From: Halobacteriovorax sp. JY17
Lineage (GTDB): Bacteria; Bdellovibrionota; Bacteriovoracia; Bacteriovoracales; Bacteriovoracaceae
Reading direction: 5' to 3'
DNA length: 64,000 nt
Assembly (NCBI RefSeq): GCF_002753895.1
Contig: NZ_NJER01000001.1
Location: 620,001-684,000, forward strand
The translations under genes were made by a program, and so were the position numbers. Below are positions 12,756 through 30,519 of the stretch, piece by piece; the first letter of the stretch is position 1; the number at the start of each line of letters is the position of its first letter. The notes under the pieces were generated by a model, which had not been told where the DNA came from, searched no databases, and saw nothing but the letters and a program-made list of their open reading frames with translations.

Positions 12756-15700
12756 TTAGTCTAAGAAATACTCGCCAACTCCGTATAGCCCGTTTTGATA
12801 AACGATGAAGTAGATGGAGTTACTAACAGAGTTATAGAGAATCTTTCTCTGTCCAGAGTAACATTTAAGAGCAGTGGAAGCTAAGTCTAGAGAAGTCGTA
12901 GTGTCAGTTGTTTTATTATACTCAATCATCACACCTGAACTATTACAGTAGTAAATCTTCTCTTCGGCCCCATCTCTTCTCATCACAAAACCATAAGCAG
13001 AACTTGGAAGTGTTGTGTATTCAGCGATAACTCCCCCTTGAGTGGTCTTTATAATTCTAGAAGAGTTTGCTTGCTTCATTAGCCAACCGTGAGTGGCATC
13101 GTACTGGGCGTTGACCATTCCACCGTAGGTAGGCGCTCTGGAGTCGGCAGTATTTGTACCTGCAGCTTCTATACTACCTCTATCTGTATCGGGTTGACCC
13201 ATGAAGTGAGATTGGCGATAGCTGTCAGCTCGGTCATAGAGTTTTATATAGGCGTCAGATGAAGTTGTTCCATTCCATCTAGACTTTTGAACCATTAATT
13301 GATCTCCAGCAAGGCCTAGAATTTGTTCGCTATACCAGTCAAAAGATATATCATTTCCAACTTTCCCATCAGAAGCTGGATTGTAATAAGAGGTTCCACC
13401 ATTTCCAATAACTTTCGACCAAAGCCCAGAAGCTCTGGTAAAGAGTTGAACACCAGAGCCTGTGTCATCGTAAATATTTCCGTTAATAGGGTCTGAAGTG
13501 AATGAGTAAGTTGTATATCCGTAGCTACCAGCAACGTAATTTATATTTCCACCAATTTGAAATTCTCTATAATCACCTGAGATCGTATCTCCTATTAGAA
13601 GGATATCTTTTTGCGCGGAATTTAATCCCCAGTCAATTTGATAAGAGAGGCCAATTCTAGCAGAGAGTGCATTTCCTCCATCACCGCTAGAAGGAAATTG
13701 ACCAGTGAGAGTGACGATATTGCCAGAGTCATCAAGAGTTCTAATGAGCCCTTGATCGTTGAAGAATAGCTTCCCGTTGGCGTCTACAAACATGGCCTCA
13801 ATACTTACACTGCACGAAGTTGCATTCGTTCCATCAGAACAAGGTGCTCCTGGTGTTGATCCTGTTCCTAGAATTTTACTCCAAGTATTCGCGGCAGCAT
13901 TATAGACCACCAATTCACGTTTTAGTTGAGTGACCGCGTAGAGAAGTCCATTTTGTCCTGACTTATAGACTGCGAAGTAACCTCCATAGACATCATACGG
14001 AGCAATCGCTTGATAGTCAGTTGTAGGGGAGCCATTAACAAAGTCTAGCCTCGTAGGGTATCGTCGTGTATTTCCAGGAACTGACTTATAAATTGTGACT
14101 TGCATATGCTCAATTTCAGAAGAGAGTGGGTCATAGGTCATGGCCAAGTTATAAGTTGGTTGAACACTCAATGGCCCAGCCGCGTCCGTATAGTATCCCG
14201 TTCCTGAAACATTAACTAAATTTACTTTTCCTGCTGAAGCATCGTAGTGCCTCCATTTCTTATTGCTAGAAGAATCAGACTTAAAGTAGATATCTCCATT
14301 TGGAAGAGTTGTTATTGTTGAGTAGTGAGTATGAGTGGCATCAATTTTTATCTGATCTGGATCAACACTATTTCCCGGATCTGAGGAAGATCCGCCACCA
14401 ATAAGGGTGCTGATGGTCCAAGGATTTGTATTCATATCTATTCTTCTAAAGCTATTGTTGTCGAGAACTAAGAGCCCATTTGAGTGATCAAGAGCAATGG
14501 CCTGAGGGTCTTTGAGGGTGGCACTAGCTATAGAACCTCCGTCTCCAGAAGCTGTTCCTGTTTTAGCGATCAACTCGCTTACAACTCCAGTGGTTGGATT
14601 GACCCAAAGTAGGCCGGCCTGTGTATCTAGCATGAAAATATCGCCCTTACTTGTAACCGCAAGGGAGTTTGAGTCTGCGAGATGTTGACTAGACCTTGTC
14701 TTATAAATAACTGATTGAGAGCTTCCGCCAACACCTTTTTCTGTGTTACCTGCAATCATTCTAAAATTTGTTTCATTTAAAGGAGAGGAAGTTAAAAAAG
14801 TTTCAGCACTGGCGGTATCTTTAACAATGATTCTTATTTTAAAAGATCCTGTGGTTGGAACTTGTCCTTCAAGAACAACACAACCTGTTTCATTCCCACT
14901 AATAGTACAGCCAGTATTTGCAATATTTGCGATATTTGAGGCGAGGGGAAGAAACTCATCTGGATTGGCATTAGTGGCATAACTTATACTTATAGGATTT
15001 GCGATAAGTCCTTCAGCATCTGAAGCCTTCCACTTTATATAAATATCTGAGCCCGCTCCAAAGATGAGGTCTGAGACTACCGCAGGACTAGATGGTGAAT
15101 CGCTATTGGATACTGTTAAGTCTGAAATTTGTGGAGGAGTCCCTGGCATATAAGTGATTGTGTCTTTATCTACAGAGAGAGTCGCTGCGTTCGTTGTTAT
15201 ATTTTCTGCCGCGTCCGCAAGCCACAAGTAGACATCGTAAGAACTGTTTAAAAAACCAATTCTAAAATAGAGGTTATCGGACGGAGTCGCAGTAACGGAA
15301 GTTGATCGTAGGCCTGCCGGTAGCGTTGTCCAACACTCATCGTCCAAGCTTGTAGGAGGAGTGTCGTCATCGTATCTTAGGCAAGCGTAAGTAATATTTG
15401 AAGTCGTATCGGTCGCAGAGAATTCTACTAAGACATTATTATTATCTGTCGTCGCTAATCCCTCTGCTAAATCAAAAGAGGAGATTGTAGGTGCCGTTCC
15501 GTCTATAATAATGTCTTTTTCTACAGTGGTTGTGAAGCCTACTTCATCGGTAAAGCTCACCTCTAGTTTAGCGTTAGGAGTATCAACTCCCGTGGTGAAC
15601 GAGCCAGTGTACTCAGAGTTTACTTGAGAGACTGAACTACTTAGAACACTCGTTAAATTATTCCAAGACGACCCGTCATAGAATCTAAGAGTGAAATTTC

Positions 15701-18700
15701 CTCCTGCAGCCCCTGGGTTAACTTCAGTTAGTTTCCAAGAGAAGTCCTCTGCTATTCCTGACTTATAGGCCTCTTTAAAATTTATAGAGAGAATTGGAGC
15801 AGTAGAATCTACATGGAAAGTTGAGCTTTCAGTCTCAGCAGTATTTCCAGCGAGGTCCGTATAAGAAACTTTAAATTTTGCGCTAGTTGTATCTATTGTA
15901 GGGAGAGTCCAGTTTTTAGAAAAAGCTGTCGCCGATAAATTACCACTTGCAGAGGCAAGTGTTCCAACTGTTTGCCAGCTAGAACCGTTGAAGAATTCTA
16001 TTGTAAAATCATTGGTAGATGTAGAGTTCAACTCGGTCAAGTCAAAATCAATATCAATACTAGTATTTCCTTTCTTAGTTGGTATTGCTGCAAAGTTAAT
16101 AATAGGGAGAGTTTCGTCGTAGTGAACGATCACTGTATCTTCACTTGAAGAGACGTTCTCATTAACGTCTTTTGACCATACTTTTAAAGAACGATCACCT
16201 TCAGTTGTAGAGACTAGAGTATGAGTTATCGCTCCCACCACAGTTGAGCAAGCTTGCCAACCAGTATCGCCTGAAGACGGCTTAGCGCCTTCTGTGATAA
16301 AGAGATAAGGCATATCAGCACAGCTTGAAGCCGTTAGGTTTTGATTGAGTGTGTTTCTATAAGTTGAGTGCGCGAGTGAAATTGTCGGCGCTGCAGGAGC
16401 AGTTTTGTCACTAACCGCTATATTCACTGTTGCAAAGGAAGCCGCATCAGTAGTTCCATCACTTGCAATAAAAGTAAAAGAGTCTGTACCGTTATAGTTA
16501 GAGTTAGAAATATAGTCACAGACTATATCGGTACTATAACTTCCTGTCGTAATACAATTTGTTAGAGAACCATTTGTTGGAGCACTTACTAATTTATATG
16601 AAAGAGTGTCTCCGTCAATATCAGTAGCAGCAGAAAGGTTGATGACTAAATTCGTATTGTCATCGGTAGATACATTTTGATCTGCGGCCATGACTGGAGC
16701 ATCATTTTCAGCTGAAATCGTTACTGTCACTGTCGATGTATTTGAGTCAAGTGCACCGTCATTTACTTTAAAAGTAAATGACGTTGATCCATTGAAGTTT
16801 AATGATGGCGTAAAAAGACAAGACCTTGAAGTTCCACCGTCACAAGTCAGTGTTCCCGTGGCAGGATCAGTGAGTTTAACATAAGTTAGAGTTGCACTAT
16901 CAATATCACTACCAAGTGGAAGATCAAAAGTTAGAGGAGTATCTTCAGCCGTCGTTACCGCTCCTGTTGTGGCAATGGTAGGGGCGTCATTAACTGGAGA
17001 GATTGTAATATTAACTGTCGAAGTCGTTGAGGACTCTAAGAGGGAATCGTAGGCCTTGTAAGTAAAGGAGTCTGTCCCGTTATAATTTCCTGCAGGAGTG
17101 TAAGTACATGATTTGTCAGTACTCCACGAAGAATTATCAATACAGTTTGAGAGCACTCCGTTTTGTGGAGCAGATACTATCTGGTACTGAATAGATGGAG
17201 TCGCCGTTAAATCATCAGAGGCACCAAGAAGAGTAATTGATAGAGGAGTATCTTCGTTTGTTGTCTCACTTTGATTGGCGATCATCTCGGGGGCATCATT
17301 GATTGAATTTATAGTTATAGAAACGGTTGAAGTATTTGAATCAAGTGTGCCGTCATTAACTTTGTAAGTAAAAGTTCTAACTCCATAGTCATTTGCTGCC
17401 GGAGTGTAAGTACAAGATCTTGATGTTCCACCAACACAGCTTAACGTTCCCTGAGCAGGATCGCTGACTTTGATATAGCTTAGTGTTGCACTATCGATAT
17501 CACTTCCTAGGTTCAAGTCAAAAGTTACTGGAGTGTCTTCATCTGTCGAAATTGCTTGAGTGGCCGCTAGTGTTGGCGCATCGTTTACGGCACTAGTGTT
17601 AAAAGTTATCGTTGCTACGTTTGCTGATTCTGCAATAGAGTCATAGACCCTGTAAGTAAATGAATCACTTCCATTGAAGTCAGAGTCAGGAGTATAAGTA
17701 CAACTTAGGTCTGTAGTGAAACCGGCGCTCGTTATACAATTTGTTAAAGTTCCATTTGTGACGGAGTTGATGACTTTATAGCTAAGAGTTTGTACGGGAA
17801 GATCTATATCCGCCGCGCTTGTAATGGTAAAGTTGAGCGGTGTATCTTCAACTGGTGTGAATACCTGGTCGGCAGCTACAACAGGGGCATCGTTTTGAGC
17901 AGAGATATTTATAGTCACTGTTGAAATACTTGAGTTGAGAATAGAATCACTCACTCTATAAGTGAAGGTATATGAGCTTACATCGTCATTTGCTGGTAAA
18001 TATGTACAAGCGGGAGATATTCCTCCATCACAACTTAATGTTCCCGCACTTGGCGCAGAGACAATGATGAAGTTTAATGTATCCCCGTCAACGTCACTTC
18101 CTGAATTTAAGTCAAAGTCTAAACTAGTATCTTCGTTAGTTGAAACAGTCTGTGTTGCAGTGAGAGTAGGAGCATCGTTTACAGGATTAATAGTTAAAGT
18201 GACTGTAGTTACAAGAGAGTCCGCACTTGCATCATTCGCTTTGTAACTAAATGAATCTGAACCATTGAAGTTTGTATTTGGTGTATAAGTACAATCAAGG
18301 TCAGTGTCTGAATTTAGACAATTTGTAAGAGCTCCTGAAGTCGGTCCCGAAACGATAGTGTAGGTAAGAGAATCCGAATCAGCATCAATTGCAGCAGGAA
18401 TAGTAAAATTATGCGTACTATCTTCGCTTAAAGAGCTTGCTGAATCAGAGGCCTTGCTTGGAGTATTGTTTAAAGAAGTAAAGCTTAGCGCCGTGCTTGT
18501 AGAATTACTTCCACAGCTCCAGGTTAAGTTAGCAGTCTTAACTCCCTTTGTTGTCGGTCTTGGCCTTACATCAATAGTACAGCTTGAACTCGGTGCTAGA
18601 TTTGTGCTTCCACATCCATCTGCTATGATTTCAAATTCGGAAGCATTTGTTCCGCTTAAGCTTGCGCCACTACAAGTCGTCGAGGCGGCGCCACCTGAAT

Positions 18701-20834
18701 TTGTTATAGTTGTCGTCGATGCAGAACCATTTGATGTATTAAGAGTGTTAGCTAGGGCGTAAGTAGTATTTGAAAAATTTAAAATAGGAGCATCAATAAC
18801 AAGATCTCCACTTTCTAGTATTCTATTACTTCCCAATTCATCTTCAAAGCTAACTCTAAACTTTGCATTAGTTACTGAGATATTTGGTAGAGTGAAAGAA
18901 GTCGTGAAAGTTTGCTCGCTGATAAGACCACTTGGAGATGCAATGCTTGCAATATTACTCCATGCGCTTCCATTAAAAAACTCTACAATGAAGTTCTTTG
19001 TTCCATCATTATGTTCTTCTGAGGCCTTCCAGCTTATATTTACTGTAGACTCGGCGATAAACGTAGGAGGAAGATTATCAAATGCTAATATTGGAGCAGT
19101 AGTATCAATATTTACGGTGAGAATTTTTGGATCACTAATTGTTCCATTAATATCTATTGCCCAGAGTTTTAAATCTACATTTCCATCAGTTGATTTTTGT
19201 ATTGTGTATGGATAAATTTGAAAATTAGCGCTATTACAAGAAATATTAAAATCTCCACTAGATGGAATTTGGTTATCTTCTGTAATTGCCATATTGGTGA
19301 AAGAGAGACAATTTTGAAAAGCTCCGCTACCTAGATCAGTTCCTGTACTTAAATCAAGCTGAATATTTCTAGTTGTTGTAGGTGTGGTACTCGCCACATT
19401 TAAGGCGAAGTCTACAGGTGTTGCTAGTACATTATCTTGAACATTAACTTGATACTTAATGGAATGATTTGGAAAGTTAGTATCAACATTTGGAGTGGAG
19501 CTCTCTTTCTTTCCAATAATTAATTCGACCTCAACTTCTCTAAGTGAATTTGCAGGAGGAGAATAGACCCAAGAAGCACTATTTGAAACAGTACTTCCAT
19601 TTAGCTTCCACTGATAAGCAATATTATAAGAGCTATTCCAGTGCGTAGAATTAACAGTGTAAGTGTAGTTACTTCCTTCTAAGACTTCTAGGTCAACATT
19701 TATACTTGAAATCTCAGGAGCAGAGTTAATAAGAAGAAAGAGGTCTTCTCCTTCAAAGGCCTTCTTTGTAGCCAGCACGATAGAACTATCGCCACTTATT
19801 TTATTATAAACTTCTTCTGGGGAATCAGTAATGCTCTCTTTTTCAGCTATTTTTAAGGAGACCTCATGAAGAGAGTCTGCATCTAATTTATCAATATCTA
19901 CACTTAAAGAGGTTCTTAGAACTTGTGAGAGTAGTGTTGTGGCCGGCCCTAATTCTTGATCTTCAAAGAAGCTTGTCACAATCCTCTGATAGTTCATGGT
20001 ACAACCAGTTGTTCTAAGTAAGTACCTAGTAGGTGTTTCTAAATTTAAATTTAGCTCATTAGGATCAAAATTAAATTCTGTACTAGATGGCAAATTTTCT
20101 CTGTTTAGTGGGTTGTCAGCAACCACTGTCATGGTCTTAATATCAAAAATCTCAATAGTAGGATTGATACAAGTAGAGGCATAGGCTTCATTAAAGAAGA
20201 GCGAGAAGCTCTTATAAGAAATCGATCCTAGGAGAGCGGGGATTTTTCCTGTGATAAGCTCTCTCTTAGAAGGAGTATTACTTCCTGATGAATTGCTTAC
20301 TGATGTGGAGTTTGTTGAATCAGAGTTCTTATTTTCTACTTTACTGGTTTCATCGTCTGATTGAAAACCACTTGAATTATAAGTATAGACTCCGTCCTGA
20401 GCAGACTTTTCTGAGGAAGGTGTTCTTGTATTTTCTGAGTTCTCAACAAGGCTGAAAGAATCATCAGGAAGGTAGATATCACTACTTGATGAATTTAAAA
20501 TAGAGTTAATCCTTCCTTGCGTATTGTAGTAACCTAAGGCCTGTTCTGAGGTCTCCGAGAAGGCACGTCGATCTTTTCTTGATTCTCTTTTCTTTGTCGC
20601 TATTTTCTTAGGAATGGAATCATTACTCTTTACTTCTTTCTTTGTTTTAAGACTCTTCTCAATTGGACGATACTTATTTTCTCCGCCCTTATTAAAACTA
20701 TAATTTGTTCTTGATTGAGAGACTTCATTCTTTGTACTTTTTGTACTTACTACCTTGTATAGAACGGCTGAACTTCCCACAAATGAAGAGATCGTTAGAG
20801 CATTTAGAATGTACTTCTTTATTAGTAGTCGCAT
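12756..20834 (-). CDS. Giant exported protein with tandem cadherin-like repeats and C-terminal propeller-like region (2692 aa)
   Basis: The N-terminal hydrophobic segment after basic residues (about 8-28) is a signal peptide or anchor. A low-complexity Ser/Asn/Lys-rich region reaches about residue 215. Ig-like strands follow, then a segment (about 690-785, TTITNSGGAASTTC) like choice-of-anchor/HYDIN domains. Seven tandem repeats of about 97-101 residues (about 787-1480) start with NDAP or a variant and share EDT, GSDxD and TYTP motifs, as in bacterial cadherin-like (Big_9) domains. More Ig-like domains lead to a C-terminal part (about 2030-2692) with NHL-like strands such as NSLAVTSKGDIFMLD. 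No sorting signal or protease motif is seen. An adhesin or surface-stalk role is inferred. Confidence 0.9.
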   Translation of the reverse strand: MRLLIKKYILNALTISSFVGSSAVLYKVVSTKSTKNEVSQSRTNYSFNKGGENKYRPIEKSLKTKKEVKSNDSIPKKIATKKRESRKDRRAFSETSEQALGYYNTQGRINSILNSSSSDIYLPDDSFSLVENSENTRTPSSEKSAQDGVYTYNSSGFQSDDETSKVENKNSDSTNSTSVSNSSGSNTPSKRELITGKIPALLGSISYKSFSLFFNEAYASTCINPTIEIFDIKTMTVVADNPLNRENLPSSTEFNFDPNELNLNLETPTRYLLRTTGCTMNYQRIVTSFFEDQELGPATTLLSQVLRTSLSVDIDKLDADSLHEVSLKIAEKESITDSPEEVYNKISGDSSIVLATKKAFEGEDLFLLINSAPEISSINVDLEVLEGSNYTYTVNSTHWNSSYNIAYQWKLNGSTVSNSASWVYSPPANSLREVEVELIIGKKESSTPNVDTNFPNHSIKYQVNVQDNVLATPVDFALNVASTTPTTTRNIQLDLSTGTDLGSGAFQNCLSFTNMAITEDNQIPSSGDFNISCNSANFQIYPYTIQKSTDGNVDLKLWAIDINGTISDPKILTVNIDTTAPILAFDNLPPTFIAESTVNISWKASEEHNDGTKNFIVEFFNGSAWSNIASIASPSGLISEQTFTTSFTLPNISVTNAKFRVSFEDELGSNRILESGDLVIDAPILNFSNTTYALANTLNTSNGSASTTTITNSGGAASTTCSGASLSGTNASEFEIIADGCGSTNLAPSSSCTIDVRPRPTTKGVKTANLTWSCGSNSTSTALSFTSLNNTPSKASDSASSLSEDSTHNFTIPAAIDADSDSLTYTIVSGPTSGALTNCLNSDTDLDCTYTPNTNFNGSDSFSYKANDASADSLVTTVTLTINPVNDAPTLTATQTVSTNEDTSLDFDLNSGSDVDGDTLNFIIVSAPSAGTLSCDGGISPACTYLPANDDVSSYTFTYRVSDSILNSSISTVTINISAQNDAPVVAADQVFTPVEDTPLNFTITSAADIDLPVQTLSYKVINSVTNGTLTNCITSAGFTTDLSCTYTPDSDFNGSDSFTYRVYDSIAESANVATITFNTSAVNDAPTLAATQAISTDEDTPVTFDLNLGSDIDSATLSYIKVSDPAQGTLSCVGGTSRSCTYTPAANDYGVRTFTYKVNDGTLDSNTSTVSITINSINDAPEMIANQSETTNEDTPLSITLLGASDDLTATPSIQYQIVSAPQNGVLSNCIDNSSWSTDKSCTYTPAGNYNGTDSFTYKAYDSLLESSTTSTVNITISPVNDAPTIATTGAVTTAEDTPLTFDLPLGSDIDSATLTYVKLTDPATGTLTCDGGTSRSCLFTPSLNFNGSTSFTFKVNDGALDSNTSTVTVTISAENDAPVMAADQNVSTDDNTNLVINLSAATDIDGDTLSYKLVSAPTNGSLTNCITTGSYSTDIVCDYISNSNYNGTDSFTFIASDGTTDAASFATVNIAVSDKTAPAAPTISLAHSTYRNTLNQNLTASSCADMPYLFITEGAKPSSGDTGWQACSTVVGAITHTLVSTTEGDRSLKVWSKDVNENVSSSEDTVIVHYDETLPIINFAAIPTKKGNTSIDIDFDLTELNSTSTNDFTIEFFNGSSWQTVGTLASASGNLSATAFSKNWTLPTIDTTSAKFKVSYTDLAGNTAETESSTFHVDSTAPILSINFKEAYKSGIAEDFSWKLTEVNPGAAGGNFTLRFYDGSSWNNLTSVLSSSVSQVNSEYTGSFTTGVDTPNAKLEVSFTDEVGFTTTVEKDIIIDGTAPTISSFDLAEGLATTDNNNVLVEFSATDTTSNITYACLRYDDDTPPTSLDDECWTTLPAGLRSTSVTATPSDNLYFRIGFLNSSYDVYLWLADAAENITTNAATLSVDKDTITYMPGTPPQISDLTVSNSDSPSSPAVVSDLIFGAGSDIYIKWKASDAEGLIANPISISYATNANPDEFLPLASNIANIANTGCTISGNETGCVVLEGQVPTTGSFKIRIIVKDTASAETFLTSSPLNETNFRMIAGNTEKGVGGSSQSVIYKTRSSQHLADSNSLAVTSKGDIFMLDTQAGLLWVNPTTGVVSELIAKTGTASGDGGSIASATLKDPQAIALDHSNGLLVLDNNSFRRIDMNTNPWTISTLIGGGSSSDPGNSVDPDQIKIDATHTHYSTITTLPNGDIYFKSDSSSNKKWRHYDASAGKVNLVNVSGTGYYTDAAGPLSVQPTYNLAMTYDPLSSEIEHMQVTIYKSVPGNTRRYPTRLDFVNGSPTTDYQAIAPYDVYGGYFAVYKSGQNGLLYAVTQLKRELVVYNAAANTWSKILGTGSTPGAPCSDGTNATSCSVSIEAMFVDANGKLFFNDQGLIRTLDDSGNIVTLTGQFPSSGDGGNALSARIGLSYQIDWGLNSAQKDILLIGDTISGDYREFQIGGNINYVAGSYGYTTYSFTSDPINGNIYDDTGSGVQLFTRASGLWSKVIGNGGTSYYNPASDGKVGNDISFDWYSEQILGLAGDQLMVQKSRWNGTTSSDAYIKLYDRADSYRQSHFMGQPDTDRGSIEAAGTNTADSRAPTYGGMVNAQYDATHGWLMKQANSSRIIKTTQGGVIAEYTTLPSSAYGFVMRRDGAEEKIYYCNSSGVMIEYNKTTDTTTSLDLASTALKCYSGQRKILYNSVSNSIYFIVYQNGLYGVGEYFLD

Positions 20835-20981: not shown

Positions 20982-21935
20982 TTAGAATTTAAGTTTAAAA
21001 ACCGGGCTATCACTTAATTTCTTCTTTCTCTTATCGTATTCCTGAGTTGTCTTAACTGAAGAGTGGTTAACCTCTCTGGCGACAGAGTAGATATCAACTC
21101 CTTGCTCTAGGAGTTCTCCAATGAAAGTTGCTCTGGCCGAATGGGGTGTCACTTTAAAATTAAGGCCAATTTTTCTTGCGTAGTAATCTACAATCTCATT
21201 GATTGTTTTTGGGTTGAGAGGTTTATTTAAGCGATCAGGATTTGTTGGGTTATGAGAGGGTTGAAAGAGCCAGTCTTCGCGCTCTAGTTTTCTCGCTATT
21301 TTTTCCATATTGAGAATGTAGAGATCTAAGCTCTCAATACATTCTGGATGGAGAACTTTCTGTCCAATCTTTCCACCCTTACCAATAAATTCTAAGACTC
21401 TATATTCATTAATTTCTCGGTAGTCTTTAAATTTAAGATTTAGAATTTCGCTCTTTCTAAGCCCTGTTGTAAAGAACATCATAAGAAGGGCCCGGTGAAG
21501 GATTCCTGAGTCCGTCTCTCTAGGAATAGAGTCTAATAACTCTCTCATCTGTGTTGCAGAGAGTGCATTGGTAGGGGAGACAACATCTCTTCTAGGTCTT
21601 TTTACAGAAGAGACAGGATTAAATTCCAGAATACTTTTCTCTACTAGAAAGTCACTATAGCTTGAAAGGGCAGCGAGTTTTCTCGCAATTGTTTTAGGAG
21701 CGCAGGGCTGACCATAGCGGCCACCAACTTCTTGTAACCAATTTCTATACTTGATGATGTGAGCTCTCTCTAAGTCAGCGTAGGACTTCATAGAGAGCTC
21801 CTCAAAGGCCCAAGTGAGAAAGTGTCTTATATCTATTTCATAGCTAGAGCGAGTGTGCCTTGAATTGAAATTATCAAAGAACTCTTGGTAGATAGTGAAT
21901 GGGTGAGCAATTTGCTCTAATTTCTTTTCTCCCAT
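20982..21935 (-). CDS. Tyrosine recombinase (Xer/phage integrase family), 317 aa
   Basis: Site-specific DNA recombinase with an N-terminal SAM-like core-binding domain (about 11-110) and a complete catalytic domain. Active-site residues visible are R160 (TTGLRKSE), K186 (GKGGK), H265 and R268 (TPHSARAT), H291 (VNHSSVKTT) and nucleophile Y300 (TQEYDKRK). The length and simple two-domain form fit XerC/XerD-type enzymes as well as small integrases. No excisionase, phage genes or attachment repeats lie beside it. A second tyrosine recombinase is 5.6 kb away on the same strand, so the two may be a Xer pair or unrelated orphans. Confidence 0.9.
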   Translation of the reverse strand: MGEKKLEQIAHPFTIYQEFFDNFNSRHTRSSYEIDIRHFLTWAFEELSMKSYADLERAHIIKYRNWLQEVGGRYGQPCAPKTIARKLAALSSYSDFLVEKSILEFNPVSSVKRPRRDVVSPTNALSATQMRELLDSIPRETDSGILHRALLMMFFTTGLRKSEILNLKFKDYREINEYRVLEFIGKGGKIGQKVLHPECIESLDLYILNMEKIARKLEREDWLFQPSHNPTNPDRLNKPLNPKTINEIVDYYARKIGLNFKVTPHSARATFIGELLEQGVDIYSVAREVNHSSVKTTQEYDKRKKKLSDSPVFKLKF

Positions 21936-27583: not shown

Positions 27584-28531
27584 TCATTGCACCTTAGTGG
27601 GCTCAATATCTATATAGGTCTGAGTGACTTTAGCATCATGGTGATTCAAGTAATCTCTCACTAGGAGGAGATCCTTCGTTTTCTTATAAAGATTGGTTGC
27701 GCAGGCTTTTCTAAAACTATGGGGCCCAAGATCTTCATCGCAACAATTAACTTTTAAAAGCTTCTTTATTAAATTGTACATACTTCTAGTACTAAGGCAA
27801 TTACCTAAGTAGTTAGTAAAAATAAAATCTGATTTTGCATCCCTCATTAAGAAAGTTATATCTTTCATTATTTCATCAAAGCGCTGAGGATGAAATTCGT
27901 GAATATAACCACCCTTTCGTATAACCTTCATCGTCTTTCTTTGAGAGTCAAAATTTGAAAATTTAAGTTGAGTAAGCTCGCTAAGTCTAAGCCCCCCCCA
28001 ATAGAGAAGTTGAAGAATAAGCCTCTCTCTTGTTCTATAAGTTGATTCAATCAAGATTCGCCACTGCTCGTAGGGGAGTATAGGAGTATGGGTAATATCA
28101 GTATCTTTAACTTTTATTCCATGAATCTTTTCTTTTACAGGATTTATAAGAAAGAGGTTGGAGTGATCTTCATGTGTCTGTTTCAAAAATTCATAGAAAT
28201 TCTTTATAGAACTTAGGTGTCTCTTCGTAGAATTATTTGAAAGAGGACTTTGTTCAAAGAGTATAACTTTCTTAGGCCTAAAGCGGAGAAGTCTTCTTAG
28301 AAAACTTTCTTTCTTATAAAGAAGACCTCCATTTAGAAGAAATGATTTATAGAGGCCAATAATATCCTTCTTCTTTGCGCTGATGGGAGAGTTAAAAGTG
28401 AACTCATACCAGAGTAGGTACTTATCTAAATCACTCTTATAATTTTTAATGGTATGGATGGATTTATTTTGCTTAGAGCAATTCTCTAAGTACTGATTCA
28501 ACCATCCTTGGTTTTTCTTATTCATTTTCAT
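27584..28531 (-). CDS. Tyrosine recombinase (Xer/integrase family), 315 aa
   Basis: The catalytic residues are complete: R182 (GGLRLSEL), K206 (RKGGY), H271 and R274 (GPHSFRKACATNL), H297 (LNHHDAKVTQ) and Y306 (TYIDIEP). The N-terminal core-binding domain (about 8-140) holds a basic insert near 70-95 (KKESFLRRLLRFRPKK). A dif-like 28-bp site lies 35 bp upstream of the ATG. This recalls XerS, whose target site sits just before its gene. An orphan integrase is the alternative. It is unlike the other recombinase at 20982 apart from the shared catalytic pattern. Confidence 0.9.
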   Translation of the reverse strand: MKMNKKNQGWLNQYLENCSKQNKSIHTIKNYKSDLDKYLLWYEFTFNSPISAKKKDIIGLYKSFLLNGGLLYKKESFLRRLLRFRPKKVILFEQSPLSNNSTKRHLSSIKNFYEFLKQTHEDHSNLFLINPVKEKIHGIKVKDTDITHTPILPYEQWRILIESTYRTRERLILQLLYWGGLRLSELTQLKFSNFDSQRKTMKVIRKGGYIHEFHPQRFDEIMKDITFLMRDAKSDFIFTNYLGNCLSTRSMYNLIKKLLKVNCCDEDLGPHSFRKACATNLYKKTKDLLLVRDYLNHHDAKVTQTYIDIEPTKVQ

Positions 28532-28566
28532 ATTCGCTATGTGTTGTAATAAAATTCAATTAAAAA

Positions 28567-28594
28567 ACTTCGTATAAACTATGTTATATGAATT
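28567..28594. other. dif-like Xer recombination site candidate
   Basis: Arms ACTTCGTATAA (28567-28577) and TTATATGAATT (28584-28594) flank the six-base centre ACTATG. This is the exact 11-6-11 layout of bacterial dif sites. Nine of 11 arm positions are complementary. The left arm resembles ACTTCCTAGAA, which I recall as the Bacillus subtilis dif left arm, and the TTAT start of the right arm matches XerD-type arms. It lies 35 bp upstream of a tyrosine recombinase gene. Function is inferred from architecture only. Confidence 0.5.
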
Positions 28595-28658
28595 ATTTTA
28601 ATTGTAAATAGCTGATAATAGGAAAAATGGATTCTAAGCCTTTGGGATAGGTGTAACC

Positions 28659-29001: not shown

Positions 29002-29028
29002 AATACTTACATGGCAAATGTAAGTATT
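29002..29028. repeat. Perfect 11-bp inverted repeat in a divergent intergenic region
   Basis: AATACTTACAT (29002-29012) and ATGTAAGTATT (29018-29028) are perfectly complementary around the centre GGCAA, and TTATT follows. It lies between the divergent 85-aa gene and kamA, where no transcript is expected to end. An operator is therefore as likely as a terminator. Confidence 0.5.
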
Positions 29029-29181: not shown

Positions 29182-30519
29182 ATGTCTAATATTGATCATT
29201 CAAAAATTAGAGAACTAGAGCACAGAAACTTTAGAAATGACGACTTTTGGAAAGAGATTCCTGAATGGGCCAACGTCACTAGAGGAGAGTTTGCTGACCA
29301 TAAGTGGCAACTTAAGAACTCTGTTCGAAAGGTAGATCAAGTAGAGAGATTTCTAGGATCAAAAATCTCTAAAGAACATATGGACGACATCAGAGAAGGT
29401 CAACATATCACACCGATGAATATTAGGATTACTCCATATATTTTTGCGTTAATTGATTGGAAAGATCCTCTTAATTGTCCTCTTAGAAAACAATTTCTCC
29501 CAATGGGAAGTCAATTCTTAGAAGATCATCCTTACTATAAATCTGACTCACTAAGTGAAGATGATGATTCTCCAGTTCCGATGCTTACTCATAGATACCC
29601 AGATAAGGTTCTCTTTTTGCCAACGACAATTTGTCCTGTGTATTGCTCTTATTGTACGCGTTCAAGAATTATTGGTGGATCAACTGAATCAATTGAAAAA
29701 GAAACTTATGGTGCAAATCAAAAGAAGTGGGACGATGTCTTTGAATACTTAAGTAATCACCCAAGAATTGAAGATGTTGTGATTTCTGGTGGAGACGCTT
29801 TCATGTTAACTCCAAAACAGATTAGATATATTGGTGAAAACCTTTTAAGAATCCCTCATATTAGAAGAATTCGTCTTGCGACTAAAGGGATTGCTATTTT
29901 CCCGCAGAAAGTTCTGACTGATGATGAGTGGTTTGAAGCTGTTCAAGAGATTCACGCTCTTGGAAGATCGTTTGGAAAGCAAGTAGTTATTCACACGCAT
30001 TTTTCTTGCGCAAGAGAGATTACAAAGTGGTCCCAAATGGCGATGGACAGATTATTCCAAGCAGGAATCGTGGTGAGAAATCAAGCGGTTCTTCAAGAAG
30101 GAGTAAATAATCACGTAGATGAAATGGTTCTTCTTACAAGACAAGTTGGTTACCTAAATATTCAACCATACTATGTCTACATGCACGATATGGTTCCAGG
30201 GTGCGAGCACTTTAGAACAACTCTTAGAGAAGCAGTAGAGCTAGAGAAATCAGTGAGAGGAACAACTGCTGGATTTAATACTCCAACATTCGTTTGCGAT
30301 CTTCCTGGTGGTGGTGGTAAGAGACACGTTGCCTCTTACGAATACTATGATGAAGAAAATGGTATTTCAGTTTGGAAAGCGCCTCATGTGAAACCTGGTC
30401 AAACGTTCACTTACTTTGATCCAATTCACAAACTCTCTCCAGAAGCTCAAGCAAGATGGGCCGAGCCTGCGAAGAGGCAAGAGATGATTGATGCGGCGAT
30501 AGCAAAAGTAAAAAAATAA
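29182..30519 (+). CDS. kamA: Lysine 2,3-aminomutase (radical SAM, PLP-dependent)
   Basis: Converts L-lysine to L-beta-lysine with a 4Fe-4S cluster, SAM and PLP. The 445 residues contain the radical-SAM triad CPVYCSYC (about 152-159) and the PLP lysine motif DLPGGGGK (about 375-382). Two aspartates that in the clostridial enzyme bind the substrate amino group appear conserved, in YMHDMV and VCDLPGG, favouring lysine over glutamate. The length is far above the translation-factor modifier EpmB. An acetyltransferase partner for N-acetyl-beta-lysine osmolyte synthesis is not adjacent. GAGAGG precedes the ATG; a good promoter and a strong terminator frame a single-gene unit. Confidence 0.92.
   Translation: MSNIDHSKIRELEHRNFRNDDFWKEIPEWANVTRGEFADHKWQLKNSVRKVDQVERFLGSKISKEHMDDIREGQHITPMNIRITPYIFALIDWKDPLNCPLRKQFLPMGSQFLEDHPYYKSDSLSEDDDSPVPMLTHRYPDKVLFLPTTICPVYCSYCTRSRIIGGSTESIEKETYGANQKKWDDVFEYLSNHPRIEDVVISGGDAFMLTPKQIRYIGENLLRIPHIRRIRLATKGIAIFPQKVLTDDEWFEAVQEIHALGRSFGKQVVIHTHFSCAREITKWSQMAMDRLFQAGIVVRNQAVLQEGVNNHVDEMVLLTRQVGYLNIQPYYVYMHDMVPGCEHFRTTLREAVELEKSVRGTTAGFNTPTFVCDLPGGGGKRHVASYEYYDEENGISVWKAPHVKPGQTFTYFDPIHKLSPEAQARWAEPAKRQEMIDAAIAKVKK

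Follow-up and report, generated by a model that had tools for sequence, protein, structure and literature searches.

A 28-bp inverted repeat lying beside a tyrosine recombinase gene, gene A, is very probably the chromosomal dif of the genome studied here, and its reading as a chromosomal dif with its own recombinase is well supported. We consider with good confidence that this Bacteriovoracia lineage uses the 28-mer as its chromosome dimer resolution site (dif), with A acting as a homomer under the guidance of FtsK. The observations behind this reading are the site itself, its conservation, its location, its co-occurrence with A, the covariation of its arms, an element that flanks it and the polarity of a heptamer, all read directly from sequence. 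Dimer resolution is seldom examined outside model bacteria. A further single-recombinase system, in predators that make many chromosomes per filament, would show the replacement of the two-protein system, and the site would be a useful terminus marker for these genomes.

The 28-mer and its neighbourhood

The window is the whole stretch of 64,000 nucleotides that was analysed, G000:C1:620001-684000 of a 3.47 Mb genome. The 28-mer, ACTTCGTATAA-ACTATG-TTATATGAATT, occupies positions 28567-28594 and consists of two 11-bp inverted arms around a 6-bp centre, with 35 bp between it and the start ATG of gene A (28531, minus strand). An earlier sequence-only reading had claimed an 11-6-11 site 35 bp from the start of a recombinase gene, and that arrangement is real; within the span that it assigned to the site, 28531-28594, the site itself is confined to 28567-28594, and 28531 is the gene start. 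The features, in window coordinates, are as follows.

20982-21935, minus strand: recombinase B, another Xer-like gene close to the terminus, with no role at the site assigned to it; catalytic set intact by eye
27584-28531, minus strand: gene A, a 315-aa tyrosine recombinase, proposed as the sole recombinase of the site
28386-28392, plus strand: the GGAGAGT closest to the site on the side of gene A, oriented toward it (the window has 17 copies)
28567-28577, plus strand: left 11-bp arm, facing gene A, ACTTCGTATAA; all 40 listed sites have C5 and ATAA
28578-28583, plus strand: 6-bp central region, ACTATG; the commonest form in relatives is TTTATA
28584-28594, plus strand: right 11-bp arm, mirror-like to the left, TTATATGAATT; G24 in 42/42 sites, A22 in 40/42
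28605-28617, plus strand: flanking element TAAATAGCTGATA, separated by 10 bp from the end of the 28-mer that faces away from A; the family consensus is TAAGTAnTTGAAA

Arms with at most three mismatches occur once in the 3,470,022 bases of the site's own genome (G000). A sequence model built from 15 A-adjacent sites was run on 39 genomes and gave the site 21.7 bits, against 14.4 for the next match in G000. A second full match to the consensus pattern in this genome, at C1:138003, was rejected since it scored 12.4 bits against 21.7 with the model. When the five same-genus sites were excluded and 37 sites kept, the 28-mer still came out on top in a scan of 599,243 positions, which covered the window plus 27 further stretches of the same contig (17.5 bits versus 13.5 for the next). 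A matrix of 47 published XerCD dif sites also placed it best in the window (13.3 versus 6.9). Judged from these scores, the 28-mer is more than a chance repeat, and its relatives confirm it; the search for a second such 28-mer, which the sequence-only reading had named as a check, leaves one strong copy in G000.

Two neighbours of the site were recorded separately. Between a small ORF and a KamA-like gene, at 29002-29028, lies an inverted repeat of perfect 11-5-11 form whose right arm contains TAAGTATT, and the KamA-like gene (29182-30519) encodes a KamA-family radical SAM protein (lysine 2,3-aminomutase-like). Further away, a 2,692-aa ORF with repeated extracellular-domain-like segments spans 12756-20834.

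Conservation of the site with gene A

An orthologue of A (at least 39% identity) was found in 17 of the 39 genomes, all within family f1 (25 genomes). The site lies upstream of A in 15 of these 17, within 130 bp in 14 and at 1,322 bp in G009, and the other two carry a strong site away from A (G011, C44:1321; G022, C20:36265). All 17 f1 genomes with A have a strong site (E 2.9e-5 to 0.021), 15 of these sites having trained the model while those of G011 and G022 were held out. With background matches elsewhere at up to E 0.039, the case for the weakest trained site (0.021, in G019) draws on its position too. A strong site was found in none of the eight f1 genomes that lack A (G005, G007, G008, G014, G015, G016, G018 and G021), five of which are less than 90% complete; their best E was 0.076 and two gave no match of any kind. 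These eight genomes must presumably resolve dimers somehow, which counts against the A/site reading. Recombinases considered as replacement XerCD in G021 and G008 were rejected, as they adjoin recombinase- or transposase-like genes and look by eye like transposon enzymes.

A profile search of named genomes yielded 48 loci with A, of which 12 repeated genomes already sampled and 36 were new; three of the new loci have no upstream DNA, leaving 33 informative. A site of at least 18 bits was present in 27/33; second-best scores over all 48 loci go no higher than 13.1. In 26 of these 27 the site is at most about 115 bp from where the A match starts, and in L220 the distance is 2.3 kb. Three loci have weak matches only, at 85-94 bp (L236, L237 and L215), and in the available DNA of three others (L196, L219 and L229) no site match was found. 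All 48 loci belong to Bacteriovoracia-type or loosely named environmental genomes. Conservation beside this gene in relatives, which had been put forward as a check on the site, is what these loci display.

In G001 (L011), a weaker second 28-mer with the symmetric centre TCTAGA lies about 120 bp downstream of the end of A, so that A is flanked there by two site-like sequences, the second being a background-level match. A relative of the KamA-like gene adjoins the site in G011, though A sits elsewhere in that genome.

The site lies at a switch of GC skew and motif polarity

GC skew was sampled in stretches from seven genomes (G000, G001, G003, G004, G010, G013 and G017). It is positive before the site and negative after it in all seven, so the sign change that the sequence-only reading had proposed looking for is present. 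The change falls within about 50 kb of the site, on the side away from A, in G000 and G001, and 50-100 kb beyond the site in G003. The near-complete G001, 3,435,933 long, has dnaA at 187 and the site near 1,687,272.

The heptamer GGAGAGT follows the same division. In the G001 samples outside the terminus zone its two orientations were counted at 116:0, making it the only fully polarised heptamer of the 9,651 with at least 40 occurrences (next heptamer 0.913). Having been discovered in G001, it was then tested in G000, where it stood at 90:0 outside the terminus zone (next 0.933). Truncation to GGAGAG lowers the polarity to about 2:1. On the A side, GGAGAGT is directed toward the site in 157/159 cases over the seven genomes (toward/away: G001 65/0, G000 45/0, G003 6/1, G004 9/0, G010 12/0, G013 10/1, G017 10/0). 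The side opposite A holds a zone of mixed polarity of 35-60 kb, with the last away-pointing copy at +34 kb in G001, +41 in G000, +33 in G004, +56 in G010, +36 in G013 and +60 in G017; G003 was sampled too thinly to give the edge of this zone. Genes to the left of the site are mostly on the minus strand, which had been raised as an objection to a terminus here. Locally this is correct, but we discount the objection because GGAGAGT stays polarised there.

As expected of KOPS, GGAGAGT is a short motif strongly polarised from origin to dif, and we infer that it is a KOPS-like motif. An FtsK gamma domain was present in 14/16 f1 genomes searched, including G000, the two misses being incomplete genomes. 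In G029, from another family, the four copies of GGAGAGT are all in the expected direction. In the A-less G015, every copy but one follows the skew, and the polarity turns between C6:400 and 530 kb; recombinase B is still near the polarity switch in this genome.

Both GC skew and GGAGAGT polarity turn again near 1.44 Mb of G000:C1, where the pattern is origin-like, and 14 more away-pointing copies lie beyond 1.43 Mb. G000 has its dnaA gene on a different contig (C2:184), and a search of 20 kb at this second skew switch turned up no rRNA. The second turn may represent an inversion, a misjoin or a second replicon.

Gene A encodes a separate Xer-like recombinase

Gene A is intact and contains a Phage_integrase domain. 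Its product scores below the NCBIfam cut-off of each of four Xer models (XerA_Arch 107/220, XerC 105.2/335, XerD 97.9/329.6 and XerS 77.7/267 bits), with XerA as the top match. Residues R182, K206, H271, R274, H297 and Y306, which have catalytic roles, are invariant in 16/16 aligned sequences. In the tree, the A sequences form a clade of their own (SH-aLRT 99) that excludes XerCD, XerS, B and C, and XerS, represented by two rows, is a clade separate from A. A grouping of A with XerH is weak (SH-aLRT 76; 96 in an earlier tree) and involves a single long-branched XerH catalytic part; the later tree, from which two long-branched rows had been removed, has this part as its XerH and also includes two epsilon plasmid proteins. 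The predicted structure of A (pLDDT 85, pTM 0.57) has XerA (Z 21.0, rmsd 12.7, 259 aligned) and XerH (Z 19.6, rmsd 4.5, 276 aligned) as its best matches, but these are common tyrosine-recombinase folds, so the Foldseek/VIA lists do not decide the subfamily of A. The chain ends 3 to 42 residues past the tyrosine, often at most 14. Other Xer proteins use their C-terminal tail in subunit contacts, and the short stretch in A suggests that the tail for these contacts may be reduced.

None of the 25 f1 genomes reached the canonical XerD cut-off (best 185 versus 329.6 bits with the XerD model). Eight of the 14 genomes outside f1 reached it and 13 of the 14 scored at least 268 bits; in G031, also outside f1, XerD is weak as well, at 119.7 bits. 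Among the roles that the sequence-only reading had offered for the site, a chromosomal dif gains from the skew switch in 7/7 genomes, the motif polarity, the single-copy conservation and the lack of a canonical XerD in f1. A better dif elsewhere together with canonical xer genes, or an unconserved site, would by that reading have spoken against it; our searches returned no better site in G000 and no canonical xerD-type gene in f1, and the site is conserved.

Covariation of the arms fits a single reading protein

C5, ATAA, TTAT and G24 are invariant in 40 distinct sites (38 strong sites plus L236 and L237, which were chosen by position; L215 and identical repeats were excluded). Under mirror pairing of the arms, 60 cells were changed on both sides compared to 30.0 (sd 4.1) in shuffles, and every register of the slid-register controls fell far below the mirror-pairing value. 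The outer seven arm positions of 42 sites (the 40 plus those of G011 and G022) gave 218 mirror matches versus 166.7 (sd 6.1) with right arms dealt randomly, the arm shuffles ignoring relatedness among sites. In contrast, 47 published XerCD dif sites (Table 1 of PMC2731167) gave 129 versus 125.8 (sd 4.9). Perfect 11-bp mirrors make up 9/42 sites here and 0/47 of the published set, and position 22 is A in 40/42 sites here but G in 47/47 there. Since the arms covary, unlike those of published XerCD dif sites, A probably binds both arms, as a single-recombinase system. The covarying arms would then be a natural record of the base pairs read by one recombinase.

It is also conceivable, though in our judgement unlikely, that the site is a dif at which A pairs with B or with a degenerate Xer-like protein, C, as a heteromeric and divergent XerC/XerD. 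B, with a catalytic set that looks intact, is 7 kb from the site, a placement that the rest of the genus shares, C occurs in 16/16 f1 genomes searched, and the flanking element described below makes the whole site asymmetric. However, the arms covary as if read by one protein, C has lost catalytic residues in the alignment, and A-less genomes keep B (4/5 searched) and C (5/5) without the site. As B and C persist where both A and the site are absent, the site follows A rather than either of them. B as owner of the site was rejected: the upstream DNA of 14 B genes showed no 11-6-11 sequence in common, and genomes lacking the site retain B.

C itself lies at G000:C1:979431-980414 (plus strand; loci L107-L122). 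Its first catalytic Arg is replaced by Lys in 15/16 sequences and by Ser in one, and it is also without the usual His positions, suggesting a conserved, apparently inactive Xer-like protein.

A flanking element stands at a fixed distance from the site

With columns counted outward from the end of the 28-mer that faces away from A, the element TAAGTAnTTGAAA falls at columns 11-23 in a fixed register. The alignment has 45 rows, one from G011 and 44 from sites adjacent to A or near it. TAA is found at columns 11-13 in 37/45 rows, and its mirror on the A side in 1/45. Columns 9-22 hold 8.81 bits of information versus 1.01 (sd 0.18, maximum 1.82 of 500) at random register. The left flank and the columns past about 35 are much weaker, so shared ancestry alone is not enough for the element. 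Sites that are not beside A have it as well (G011, G022 (L132, read apart), G009 and L220), and an element kept where A is elsewhere is not simply the promoter of A. Its gTAwwTGAA part resembles the right arm TTATATGAA by eye, which makes a third half-site possible. The flanks of proteobacterial dif sites are given as highly variable in PMC2731167. New here are the fixed-distance 13-bp element, the KOPS-like GGAGAGT and the one-sided 35-60 kb zone of mixed polarity.

The same evidence bears on whether the 28-mer is only an operator, with part of a promoter, for self-regulation of A, which we regard as very improbable. The 28-mer does lie within about 130 bp of the start of A in most genomes, and on the minus strand it overlaps a weak promoter-like match. 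Promoter matches are, however, no commoner than in shuffles, and site and flanking element persist together away from A in G011 (beside a kamA-like gene) and G022, and at 1.3 kb in L015 and 2.3 kb in L220; an operator would also leave the switches of skew and motif polarity unexplained.

Least credible of all is that site and A form a mobile element, either an integrase with its attachment site or a dif-using element: mobile elements commonly carry a tyrosine recombinase next to its site and G001 has a second, weaker site match downstream of A, but that match is at background (15.1 bits), the best plasmid and phage matches of A are distant relatives near 21-30% identity, a protein-profile scan of viral contigs gave one weak relative, and A is at the skew switch in the sampled genomes. 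Nine viral stretches match the arm pattern, with varied centres, and none of the nine matches a full 24-mer. The operator and the dif-using mobile element, both options in the sequence-only reading, are weakened as sole roles and could persist as side roles.

Proposed mechanism of the probable dif

For the 28-mer as a dif read by A, we infer binding, catalysis, homomeric assembly, guidance by FtsK and the role of the flanking element from the patterns above. A homodimer of A would bind both mirror-like arms of the 28-mer. FtsK, steered by GGAGAGT, would bring together the two sites of a dimeric chromosome; A would pair them and exchange strands through their 6-bp centre, and monomers would result at division. 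An otherwise symmetric site would probably gain its direction from the flanking element, as a third, weak recombinase half-site or as the binding site of an accessory protein. With a fixed-distance element and so strict a heptamer, site directionality and FtsK guidance are directly testable.

A bolder extension, which we offer tentatively as having a reasonable chance while falling short of probable, is that Bacteriovoracia swapped XerCD for a new homomeric system. Its site would measure about 51 bp, made up of covarying arms and a direction-giving element, and would form the edge, not the middle, of the one-sided 35-60 kb zone, GGAGAGT being depolarised always on the flanking-element side. 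If true, this would be a new layout for coupling the translocase to dimer resolution.

Comparison with known dimer resolution systems

Like XerCD/dif, the system presented here has a 28-bp 11-6-11 site with an ATAA...TTAT inner core, a terminus location, a tyrosine recombinase and FtsK gamma. It differs from XerCD/dif in having one dedicated recombinase gene beside the site, a conserved flanking element, both arms of the same kind (A22 and G24, not G22), no canonical XerD-type gene found in f1 and no TTATG right arm. Bdellovibrio bacteriovorus is credited with a canonical dif and xerCD by in silico prediction. No Bacteriovorax or Halobacteriovorax dif was found in the open literature searched.

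The known single-recombinase systems XerS, XerH, XerL and XerA (PMC2731167, PMC9765430, PMC5357621, PMC2958812, PMC3025954, PMC11318664) come from a few separate lineages, and the system of A and its site would parallel them by analogy. XerH/difH of Helicobacter and Campylobacter also has a single recombinase, usually near its site, and XerH is among the best structure matches of A. However, the difH consensus, given in PMC2731167 as TGAAAAC...TTTTCAAA, fits by eye none of the sites listed here, and A is a separate clade (99). XerS/difSL of streptococci and lactococci has a single recombinase genetically linked to its site at the terminus, difSL being a 31-bp atypical site (PMC5357621). The sequence-only reading had likened A to XerS; the analogy of a site beside its gene holds, whereas membership does not (77.7 versus the XerS cut-off of 267, and a separate clade).

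XerL/dif of Legionellales likewise has a single recombinase and strongly palindromic arms (10 and 12 bp for the XerL site in print). The likeness is drawn from the published description, and A adjoins its site, whereas L. pneumophila xerL is more than 400 kb from dif according to PMC9765430. Archaeal XerA is a single recombinase as well, and is the top structure and NCBIfam match of A; its dif site, as given in PMC2958812, is 28 bp long with few or no arm mismatches. Unlike XerA, A scores 107 bits against a cut-off of 220 and adjoins its site, whereas Thermococcales sites are not beside xerA, and XerA belongs to another domain of life.
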